From the NCBI GenBank assembly GCA_011524535.1, contig WTKD01000006.1, positions 43,601 through 107,600 on the forward strand: DNA of 64,000 nt, given 5' to 3'. The translations under genes were made by a program, and so were the position numbers. The stretch's first letter is position 1. Each line of letters starts with the position of its first letter. The notes under the pieces are model-generated. The model was not told where the DNA came from and made no database searches. It saw only the letters and a program-made list of their open reading frames with translations. Positions 15,468-23,177 of the stretch are shown piece by piece. This stretch comes from Spirochaetaceae bacterium (GTDB taxonomy: Bacteria > Spirochaetota > Spirochaetia > WTKD01).

Positions 15468-15854
15468 TTACGTTTCTCCTGCTATGTATTGTTTGTATGA
15501 TTCTTCTGTCATAAGGGTTGCTAAGGATTCCAGCGAATCTAAGCGTATAACAGCCAGCCAGCCAGCCCCCTCGGGGTCACTATTCAGTAGATGTATTTCA
15601 GAACTAAGCTCGGCATTTACTTCGGTCACTTCCCCAGACACCGGAGCATATAGATCACTGGAAACCTTTGTACTTTCAATTTGAGCGAAAGGTGCTTCAT
15701 GCTTTATGCTAGTGCCGATTGCAGGGAGCTCCATAAATTCTATAGTGCCCAGTTCTTCAATCCCTTGCTTACTTATTCCAATTCTTGCTAAATTCCCACC
15801 GATTGGTTTGAGCCATTCGTGGGTTTTTGTATAATACATCTTCGAGTTATCCAC
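15468..15854 (-). CDS. gcvH: Glycine cleavage system H protein / lipoyl carrier
   Basis: YTKTHEWLK, IESTKVSSDLYAPVSGEV with the lipoyl lysine. Start is GTG at 15854 or ATG at 15839. Confidence 0.9.
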   Translation of the reverse strand: MDNSKMYYTKTHEWLKPIGGNLARIGISKQGIEELGTIEFMELPAIGTSIKHEAPFAQIESTKVSSDLYAPVSGEVTEVNAELSSEIHLLNSDPEGAGWLAVIRLDSLESLATLMTEESYKQYIAGET

Positions 15855-16055
15855 TAGTTATCCCCAATTGCAATTTTTTTTCACAGAAAATAACAAATTC
15901 AAGTAGACAAAATAAAGGATTTACGACATAAATAAAATAACAAAAAAGTCCATTTAAATCAGAAACTATATATTTATGCAAAAATGCACGAATTATCAGG
16001 GATTTTCTTAGAAATGTGCACATGTATGCACATATTTGTCCACAGGTTATCCACA
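15847..16055. other. Candidate replication-origin region: DnaA-box pairs flanking AT-rich DNA
   Basis: TTATCCACT 15847-15855, TTATCCCCA 15858-15866, TTGTCCACA 16036-16044, TTATCCACA 16047-16055 (exact consensus). Both pairs at 11-bp spacing, same orientation. Confidence 0.6.
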
Positions 16056-16058
16056 TAC

Positions 16059-16718
16059 TTATGACTCATCAATAAAAATTTCCACACGTTTTATATAGTC
16101 TTTTTTCTCTCCTCCGCTCATGGTTGCAATGCCCTTTACATCTGCTACCGCTTCATGGACTATCCTCCGCTCCTGTGGATTCATCGGAGGCATAAATACC
16201 GATTTTTTCGATCGACGTACCTGTTGTATTATTTTTTGTACTTGTCTTCTGATTTTTTCTTGCTGATGCATTCTATAGTTTTCTATATCAATGCGCACTC
16301 TTTTTTCATACCCCAATCCACGGGAAGCAGCTGAAATAAGTGTTTGCAAAGCAACAAACGTGTTTCCATTTTTCCCAATCAGGATCGATGGGTTTGAAGA
16401 GGTTATAGACAAATCAAGAATGGCATCTGTAGAATTTTCAATTTCCACTTTTCCTGATACATCAAAATAATGTAAGAGCTTGTTTACAAACTCGATAGTT
16501 TTTTGTTCTGGTTTGGTTAGCGATGTGATATCTTTCTTTTTTTCTACATATTTCGCTTGAGAGCCCTCTGAAACGCGAATACGAGCATATCTAGTAGTTC
16601 CAAAAAAGCCCTTTTTTTCTTCCAAGATTTCAACATCTATGTTTGAAAGAGTGAGATCTAATTCATCTATCGCTTTTTGTATGGCTTCTTCGACCGTTTT
16701 ACCTTCAAATTCATGCAT
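16059..16718 (-). CDS. jag: Jag/KhpB RNA-binding protein (Jag_N, KH, R3H)
   Basis: EFEGKTVEEAIQKAIDEL, ILIGKNGNTFVALQTLIS, RRIVHEAVADVKGIATMS. Confidence 0.9.
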   Translation of the reverse strand: MHEFEGKTVEEAIQKAIDELDLTLSNIDVEILEEKKGFFGTTRYARIRVSEGSQAKYVEKKKDITSLTKPEQKTIEFVNKLLHYFDVSGKVEIENSTDAILDLSITSSNPSILIGKNGNTFVALQTLISAASRGLGYEKRVRIDIENYRMHQQEKIRRQVQKIIQQVRRSKKSVFMPPMNPQERRIVHEAVADVKGIATMSGGEKKDYIKRVEIFIDES

Positions 16719-20270: not shown

Positions 20271-21392
20271 CTACAGATGAACTTTCATAGGCATAATGAT
20301 ATGGTAGGACTGCATTGTTTGTTCTTCATCTGGAGTAATGGTTACAACTTTCTGTGGATCTGTAAAAGAAATTTTTACGTTCTTCGATTCTTCAACGAGC
20401 AATGGGTCCAGTAAGTATTTATGATTAAATCCAAACAACACATCCTCCCCAGAATACTCAGTGCTAATATATTCTTCAGCTTTCCCAAAATTATTATCAT
20501 TGGCATGTATATGTATTTTGTTTGATTGGATGTGGAATAGCACTTTTTTTGAAAGCTCTGCAAACAAAGATGCTTTTTTTAATGCCTGGATACATTCCTG
20601 CCTGTCTATACGAATATGATTTGTTTGAGTTTCTGGAATAACACGTTTATAATCTGGAAATTGTCCTTCAATATGGGGGGCAATTATACGAAGACCATCA
20701 CCAATTACCACAGAAAAAAATCGATCGTATACGGTGAGCGTCGCTATATCATCCGTATTCCCATGTTTTTGAATGAATTTGAGCATTTTTACCGGTAAGA
20801 TTTTCCCGGTGAAATCGCTGGGAATTTGTATGGTCGGATCCTTCACGATGGAGAGTCTTTTTCCATCGGTTGCTACTATATGCAATATTCCATTTTCTTG
20901 GGTGAAGTACACACCAGTCAAAAAGACGCGCGTGTCATCTGTCAGAACAGAGATAATACTTTTTGATATAAGGGCTAGCAATGTTTGTGTCCGTATTTCA
21001 ATAGATAATCCATCTGTTAATTCTGGAACTGTTTGGAATTCGCTTGCCTCTATTGTTTTCAATTCAAATCGTGCTTGAGTTTGTTTTGCTCCTATGCCTT
21101 TTATGATCATTGCATTGTTTTCAAATCGGAGATGTACGACGCTTTCGGTGATAGATTTTAATACAGATAACATTCGCGCTGCGTGTATTGCGGTTGTTCC
21201 ATTTTCTATACCTTCTACATGCATAGAATTATATGTATGTATTATGGAATCGCTAGCATATATAGATAGTATATCACCATCGATTTTTAAAACTGCATGC
21301 GAATATATATTCAAAAAATTTCTATCTGTTATGATATCTGAAGCTTCTTGTAAAATTTTTGTGATTGCGTGAAGAGGACATTTGCATTCCAT
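20271..21392 (-). CDS. dnaN: DNA polymerase III beta sliding clamp
   Basis: FLTGVYFTQENGILHIVATDGKRLSI, FPDYKRVIP; position next to dnaA and recF. Confidence 0.96.
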   Translation of the reverse strand: MECKCPLHAITKILQEASDIITDRNFLNIYSHAVLKIDGDILSIYASDSIIHTYNSMHVEGIENGTTAIHAARMLSVLKSITESVVHLRFENNAMIIKGIGAKQTQARFELKTIEASEFQTVPELTDGLSIEIRTQTLLALISKSIISVLTDDTRVFLTGVYFTQENGILHIVATDGKRLSIVKDPTIQIPSDFTGKILPVKMLKFIQKHGNTDDIATLTVYDRFFSVVIGDGLRIIAPHIEGQFPDYKRVIPETQTNHIRIDRQECIQALKKASLFAELSKKVLFHIQSNKIHIHANDNNFGKAEEYISTEYSGEDVLFGFNHKYLLDPLLVEESKNVKISFTDPQKVVTITPDEEQTMQSYHIIMPMKVHL

Positions 21393-21649
21393 ATAATTTC
21401 TCTTTTATGAATTATACTACGTGTATATATATAATAAAAGTAGTAGTAGGCTCGGTGAATTTGTGGGAAATCATCGTAACATATTATGCTAAAAACACTA
21501 AGACTTACCATCATATGTGGATGGGTATCAAGAAATCTCCAAATAAGTGAATAAAATTTGTGATGTTCAGATGTTTTCCCGAAGATGTTCAGAAGTGAGC
21601 TTAGAGAATTCACAAGAAACACATCGATTATTCACTATTATTAGCAAGT

Positions 21650-21711
21650 TATACACTATCGTTGATAGTGTATACACTGCTTTTTCAGAGTTTATCTCCA
21701 ATCTATCCACA
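21650..21711. other. dnaA-dnaN spacer: inverted repeat plus DnaA-box-like sites
   Basis: TATACACTATC(GTT)GATAGTGTATA at 21650-21674; TTATCTCCA 21692-21700 (2 mismatches) and CTATCCACA 21703-21711 (1 mismatch), 11 bp apart. Confidence 0.45.
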
Positions 21712-21773
21712 AGTAACACAAATAGACAAGGGATTTATAGTATAGTGAAGCCGTGACCAGATCTAAGAGGTGG

Positions 21774-23177
21774 TTAGATGGATGAGATAATTTCTTCTAG
21801 AACGTTTGGAAGGCTTGGATCGTCTGTAAGCATTTTTTTTACGCTGCGATATGCGTGTATGACGGTTGTATGATCTCTTGCTCCAAATTCGAGTCCTATG
21901 TCCTCATAGGAAAGATTTTCGTTATATGTTCTTGATAAATACATAGCGATCTTTCTTGGTTTTACTATCTTGCTGGTTTTGTTTTTGCTCTTTAATTCTG
22001 AAATGCTGACCGAAAAATAGTCTGACACAGCTTTCTGTATCGTAGGGATGGGTATATTTTTGCGGGAAGATTCGTTGAATAATGTGAGCAATGTAGGCTT
22101 TACGTTTTGGATGGTGACATCCTTTTGGAACACATTTGCGTAATGAATTACCTTTGTTAATGCAGCTTCAAGGTCGCGGACATTGGATCGTATGTTTTGG
22201 CATATGTAGGTTAGCACGTCGTTTGGGACAGAATATTTCTTTTCAGAGCTTTTCTTTTGTAGGATGGCCACGGCTGTTTCAACCAGAGGTGGCTTTAGAT
22301 CTACAATGAGTCCTCTAGTAAATCTATTTTGAAGGCGTTCGGTAATGTCCCGTATCTCTGAGACAGGTCTATCACAGGTAAATACCATTTGTTTTTTTGC
22401 TTCAAACAAGGCATTGAACGTGTGAAATAGTTCTTCTTGAGTCTCTATTTTTTTTTGTAGAAAATGGATGTCATCAATCAACAAAATGTCTGCCCTGCGA
22501 CGGTATTTTGATTTGAATGTGTTCATCGAATTTTCTTTTATCGCTTGAATGAATTCGTTTGTAAAATCTTCTGCAGTGATGCATATGATAGATTTTTGTG
22601 GACGATGCTCGAGTATGAAATTTCCAATGGATTGCAATAAATGTGTTTTCCCCAATCCAACCTTGCCATAAATCAAACAGGGGTTATACGCAATCCCGGG
22701 GTTGTTTGCGATGCTAAGGGCTGCGTGTGCTGCGAGGCGATTATTGTCTCCAATCACAAAGGATGAGAAGGTGTAGTCTTCACTCAGTCCGGACTGACTT
22801 CTTCGTGAGACAAATTCATTCTTGAGTATCTCTTGAGCATTCACACGGAACACGTCTGAAGGTTCTGTTTGATCCGATGAGAGGGGGGCTTGATTAAGAA
22901 CAGGATTGCTTGAAGATTGCTCTTGGTTTGTTTTTTTTTCAACGCGATAATCGAGTGAGTACGTTCGTCCAGAAAGAGTTTCGAGTTTTCTTTCTATACT
23001 TTTTTGGTACCTTCTTTTGAATTGATCTCGATAGAATTCAGAGGGAACGGTGACGATTATTGTTGAGTTTCCCATCTCGTCAAATGTTATATTTGAAAAC
23101 CATAATTCCTGCTCTTCTGGGCTGAGATCGGTCGACAATTCTTGTAATGCTTTGTTCCAGAAGGTGGATGTTTCCAT
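21774..23177 (-). CDS. dnaA: Chromosomal replication initiator DnaA
   Basis: NPCLIYGKVGLGKTHLLQSIGN, LLIDDIHFLQKKIETQEELFHTFN, GARDHTTVIHAYRSV domain IV signature. Confidence 0.98.
   Translation of the reverse strand: METSTFWNKALQELSTDLSPEEQELWFSNITFDEMGNSTIIVTVPSEFYRDQFKRRYQKSIERKLETLSGRTYSLDYRVEKKTNQEQSSSNPVLNQAPLSSDQTEPSDVFRVNAQEILKNEFVSRRSQSGLSEDYTFSSFVIGDNNRLAAHAALSIANNPGIAYNPCLIYGKVGLGKTHLLQSIGNFILEHRPQKSIICITAEDFTNEFIQAIKENSMNTFKSKYRRRADILLIDDIHFLQKKIETQEELFHTFNALFEAKKQMVFTCDRPVSEIRDITERLQNRFTRGLIVDLKPPLVETAVAILQKKSSEKKYSVPNDVLTYICQNIRSNVRDLEAALTKVIHYANVFQKDVTIQNVKPTLLTLFNESSRKNIPIPTIQKAVSDYFSVSISELKSKNKTSKIVKPRKIAMYLSRTYNENLSYEDIGLEFGARDHTTVIHAYRSVKKMLTDDPSLPNVLEEIISSI

Follow-up and report, generated by a model that had tools for sequence, protein, structure and literature searches.

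The spacer between jag and gcvH in this Spirochaetaceae genome carries four DnaA boxes arranged as two tandem pairs, a module that recurs behind jag in about a dozen families of Spirochaetia. The reading that we favour, with some reservation, is that of an auxiliary DnaA-box cluster, close to oriC, that holds DnaA and tunes initiation. Chromosome replication itself most likely starts in the dnaA-dnaN spacer, 5.4 kb from the jag-gcvH boxes. This corrects a tempting mis-call, in that the best near-consensus DnaA-box cluster differs from the likely origin, which combines degenerate boxes with a DnaA-trio array and is missed by box scans.

Architecture of the jag-gcvH spacer

The assembly (1.42 Mb in 14 contigs, 96% complete) has as its best-matching named DnaA relatives members of the Spirochaetales/Spirochaetia, and the nearest relatives compared share only the class with it. 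In the window, i.e. the whole stretch of 64,000 nucleotides analysed here, the minus strand reads dnaA, dnaN, recF, dciA (DUF721), rpmH, rnpA, yidC, jag, the spacer, gcvH, lipA, ahcY and a metF-like gene, while gyrB and gyrA lie on the plus strand and point away from the dnaA cluster. The features discussed below are located as follows.

15468..15842, minus strand: gcvH, glycine cleavage H protein (Pfam GCV_H)
15847..15866, plus strand: gcvH-proximal tandem DnaA-box pair, TTATCCACT-AG-TTATCCCCA, in the gcvH 5' UTR; pair position kept in relatives
15867..16035, no strand: AT-rich interval separating the two box pairs, 25% GC
16036..16055, plus strand: jag-proximal tandem DnaA-box pair, TTGTCCACA-GG-TTATCCACA, directly past the jag stop codon; kept in relatives
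16059..16718, minus strand: jag (khpB), final gene of the dnaA-to-jag cluster, with Jag_N, KH and R3H domains
20271..21392, minus strand: dnaN, with the skew change point at its 3' end
21393..21773, no strand: dnaA-dnaN spacer, most likely oriC, with extra weak boxes at 21516, 21546, 21628 and 21649 and a weak pair at 21692/21703
21424..21470, minus strand: predicted unwinding module, consisting of box TTTCCCACA, a degenerate second box, a GC-rich link, the DnaA-trio array CTACTACTACTTTTATTA (21432-21449) and then TATATATA
21774..23177, minus strand: dnaA
23178..23265, no strand: gyrB-dnaA spacer of 88 bp, without DnaA boxes; many relatives carry a two-pair DnaA-box module here

All four boxes are found on the plus strand where the original prediction had placed them, as two same-strand pairs stepped by 11 bp, with starts at 15847 (TTATCCACT), 15858 (TTATCCCCA), 16036 (TTGTCCACA) and 16047 (TTATCCACA). 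They are arranged head-to-tail throughout, with start-to-start distances of 11 bp within each pair and 189 bp between pairs, and the gcvH-proximal pair lies 4 bp ahead of the likely gcvH ATG at 15842. The DNA between the pairs (169 bp), which had been described as AT-rich, indeed has a GC content of 24.9%, versus 41.6% across the window.

The window shows no enrichment of single DnaA boxes with at most one mismatch (25 versus 19.4 ± 4.4 expected). Their clustering here is unusual, four boxes within 220 bp being matched by 1 of 300 dinucleotide shuffles. The strict tandem-pair pattern TTDTNCMCWNNTTDTNCMCW occurs twice in the window and in none of 100 shuffles, and a search of all 1.42 Mb of the assembly gives only these two copies at jag-gcvH, with no occurrence of the reversed-pattern controls; since the pattern was composed after the boxes were known, this specificity is partly circular, and relatives therefore provide the weightier, independent test.

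Prediction scans for a terminator or promoter at the jag-gcvH site gave no call above chance, and no Rfam family matched between 12 and 24 kb of the window. We note that a short palindrome, ATGTGCATACATGTGCACAT on the minus strand (16012-16034), adjoins the jag-proximal pair, and could be a weak hairpin or a protein site.

GC skew and the predicted unwinding module

The jag-gcvH spacer had initially been put forward as oriC itself. It does contain a DnaA-box cluster, the best near-consensus one of the window, and adjoins the stretch with the lowest GC content between 10 and 30 kb. GC skew, computed on stretches of contig C2 alone, places the origin elsewhere: the cumulative curve, which spans 207.6 kb, has a single clear minimum, and the change-point fit locates it at approximately 20.18 kb of the window, 3.0 kb past the dnaA start, at the 3' end of dnaN and near the dnaA-dnaN spacer. 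With respect to the best point, the difference in log-likelihood is -30.5 for jag-gcvH, -22.7 for the gyrB-dnaA spacer and -6.6 for the dnaA-dnaN spacer; the latter is the best of the three candidate spacers by skew in the window, though 6.6 log units under the optimum, and the fit treats bases as independent, which makes the intervals too narrow. In eight relatives, the jag-side site falls 10.6 to 113 log units below the best fit. The hand counts of bases that had accompanied the oriC proposal were accurate to within one base (C 40/G 10, G 48/C 26, and C 37/G 19 where C 38 had been given), and the accompanying suspicion that the skew flips nearer to 21 kb was well founded, the minimum being at about 20.2 kb.

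The dnaA-dnaN spacer also carries the features of an unwinding site. In B. subtilis and other bacteria, a DnaA box, a GC-rich link and DnaA-trios make up, in this order, the basal unwinding system (PMC8287927, PMC6669920), with the box located 0-16 bp from at least three trios (PMC8287927). On the minus strand of the window, from 21470 to 21424, the sequence reads TTTCCCACA-AATTCACCGAGC-CTACTACTACTTTTATTA-TATATATA, with TA repeats at its end; here the box TTTCCCACA (2 mismatches) is separated by 12 bp from six YTW triplets. This trio array (21432-21449) is the sole such array in the window, and its trio score was reached by none of 1000 spacer shuffles. Most Spirochaetia loci that were examined show the same layout directly ahead of dnaN, frequently with better boxes. 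In the jag-side spacers examined, including that of the window, we found no comparable trio array, and thus no unwinding module beside the AT-rich DNA at jag-gcvH; in most relatives the jag-side spacer is merely moderately AT-rich. In Borrelia, oriC has been placed between dnaA and dnaN (PMC9879097).

The jag-gcvH spacer was rejected as oriC on account of the skew change point and the absent trio array. Taken together, the skew, the trio module between dnaA and dnaN, the layout in relatives and the position of the Borrelia origin leave this assignment with a very small probability.

An inverted repeat in the dnaA-dnaN spacer, AGTGTATACACTATCAACGATAGTGTATAACT (minus strand, 21647-21678), holds weak DnaA boxes resembling TTATACACT in opposite orientation.

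Conservation of the jag-side module

Relatives have DnaA-box clusters at three addresses: ahead of dnaA, in the dnaA-dnaN spacer, and behind jag. At the last of these, the first pair lies soon past the jag stop codon and the second approximately 140-280 bp further on, on the same strand and with 11 bp within pairs. Of 116 jag loci, 29 have one pair or more no further than 450 bp from the jag stop codon; the corresponding figure for background windows is 7 of 513. Carriers come from families f1 (that of the window), f6, f18, f26 (some members), f27, f28, f31, f33, f37, f39, f40 and f42, and the module is absent altogether from several other families.

On a tree built from five proteins of 57 loci, presence of the jag module requires 5 changes, versus a mean of 17.3 and a minimum of 11 when shuffled. 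In 10 of 11 comparisons between relatives, identity is higher in the boxes than in the remaining spacer (81-100% versus 29-87%), for example 89% versus 29% for genomes G067 and G095, and 97% versus 63% for G027 and G068. Box constraint was not seen in the remaining comparison (G116 and G135), whose alignment may be poor. The jag-side two-pair module is thus a vertically inherited, sequence-constrained element. Comparison with relatives had been suggested as a check on the boxes, which turned out to be kept in about a dozen Spirochaetia families; to judge from sequence, those at jag-gcvH appear to be authentic, conserved elements for DnaA binding in the vicinity of the origin.

In G027 (locus L094, post-jag spacer), the jag-proximal pair apparently lies inside the loop of a terminator-like jag hairpin.

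Candidate roles of the jag-side boxes

The location of the gcvH-proximal pair in the gcvH 5' UTR raises the idea that it is a DnaA-responsive operator, through which DnaA would repress or time the gcvH-lipA-ahcY-metF operon and couple methyl and lipoyl metabolism to replication. Most carriers have gcvT, gcvH or ahcY as the following gene, as would be expected of a promoter-control site. Of 31 loci with gcv or ahcY no more than 1.3 kb from jag, 22 have pairs, compared to 7 of the 85 remaining loci; this count is uncorrected for phylogeny, and common inheritance of a syntenic block could equally well produce the association. There is also a precedent in B. subtilis, where trmE-noc, immediately following jag, is apparently repressed by DnaA (PMC4447404). 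However, the promoter scan gave nothing above chance, and the pairs do not behave as companions of gcv genes: among the matches listed, and compared by eye, gcvT located away from jag has no strict pair beside it, so that a dedicated gcv regulator is weakened as a candidate; in family f18 the module precedes an unrelated gene, without gcv; and f8 has gcvH directly behind jag, yet no pairs. Pairs are also retained without gcv by members of f26, behind jag or murA and flanked by convergent genes, an arrangement in which a promoter is unexpected, and gene control is therefore not the common denominator. In the window genome (96% complete), neither gcvT nor GDC-P was found above the cut-off, and the module is still present. 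Together, these observations speak for a function linked to DnaA and the surroundings of the origin. We regard the operator as unlikely, albeit the foremost of the alternatives; we found no paper naming both gcvH and a DnaA box.

With gcvH and lipA retained and neither gcvT nor GDC-P detected above the cut-off, GcvH may function here solely as a carrier of lipoyl groups.

A further possibility is that the jag-gcvH pairs loop to the unwinding module between dnaA and dnaN and deliver DnaA to it, replacing the two-pair module absent upstream of dnaA. In Spirochaetia that lack the dnaA-upstream module, the window included, the post-jag module would then act as the far arm of a bipartite origin whose two parts are separated by a whole operon, with a loop of approximately 5.4 kb. 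Its architecture equals that of the gyrB-dnaA module of relatives, the gyrB-dnaA spacer of the window has no boxes, and distal boxes do work by looping in B. subtilis (PMC6669920). The window also resembles the bipartite oriC of B. subtilis and H. pylori in having a (predicted) unwinding module between dnaA and dnaN and a separate cluster without one. In those origins, however, the second cluster lies across dnaA, whereas that of the window is 5.4 kb off, past seven more genes, and this spacing far exceeds the roughly 2 kb that bipartite origins are reported to reach at most (PMC4285127). As to the distribution of the modules, among 51 scored loci, 16 carry the dnaA-upstream module only, 15 the jag module only, 11 both and 9 neither, so that strict complementarity is rejected. 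We consider both the looping role in the window and its extension to other Spirochaetia improbable.

The auxiliary, DnaA-holding role is the one that we favour, as stated above. By its structure, the element can be classed as an oriC-proximal DnaA-box cluster, a known kind: its boxes are clustered outside oriC, 5.4 kb from the predicted unwinding site, and are conserved as an element. DnaA binding at the pairs and an effect on initiation are what we infer beyond this. DnaA probably binds each pair cooperatively, since the 11-bp step sets both boxes on nearly one helical face. The module, being 5.4 kb from the unwinding site, would be copied very soon after origin firing and its number doubled; the doubled module would take up DnaA, which could lower the amount of free DnaA near the origin or buffer it by the unwinding site. 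Such uptake would tune the timing of initiation and help to prevent early re-initiation.

Clusters of DnaA boxes outside oriC (DBCs) were reportedly studied in B. subtilis by Okumura in 2012. Removal of six such clusters leads to early initiation, according to PMC5295017 and PMC13220808, and it is on this observation that the titration model is based; in the texts consulted we found no statement that the jag-trmE site was one of the six. The jag-gcvH module is like the DBCs in consisting of consensus-like boxes away from the unwinding site (PMC5295017, PMC13220808), and differs from them in its recurring two-pair layout and recurring address. It also resembles E. coli datA and DARS, which modulate DnaA, in being a DnaA-box locus outside the likely origin; datA and DARS require a specific box geometry as well as IHF/Fis sites.

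A parallel in position is again found in B. subtilis. There, DnaA binds three adjacent regions around the origin, of which one precedes dnaA, one separates dnaA from dnaN and one follows jag (PMC4447404); they match the three box addresses of Spirochaetia. The region downstream of jag and upstream of trmE has 4 sites and a high affinity in vitro, with a Kd of 0.33 uM for ATP-DnaA (PMC4447404). Both organisms thus have multiple DnaA sites (predicted in the present case) right after jag and a few kb from oriC, but the gene that follows is trmE in B. subtilis and gcv or ahcY in the Spirochaetia carriers. A general jag-side cluster across phyla was not seen in Clostridia, where none of six loci has post-jag boxes, and the parallel may therefore be convergent, cross-phylum homology being unproven. 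The rpmH-rnpA-yidC-jag genes of B. subtilis, moreover, are on the opposite side of dnaA from their arrangement in the window. The module provides an inherited candidate DnaA-binding address in Spirochaetia, a class on whose initiation control we found little in print; its position behind jag is the one at which B. subtilis DnaA, too, binds strongly, and there are culturable carriers, such as Alkalispirochaeta alkalica.

A second conserved address of DnaA-box pairs was observed in several Spirochaetia families (L175:2778, L176:2882, L183:2842 and L201-L204). It adjoins a cluster of genes for STAS-domain, PspA-like and response-regulator-like proteins, named by eye from their translations; its place in f26 is behind murA, 3-5 kb beyond jag.
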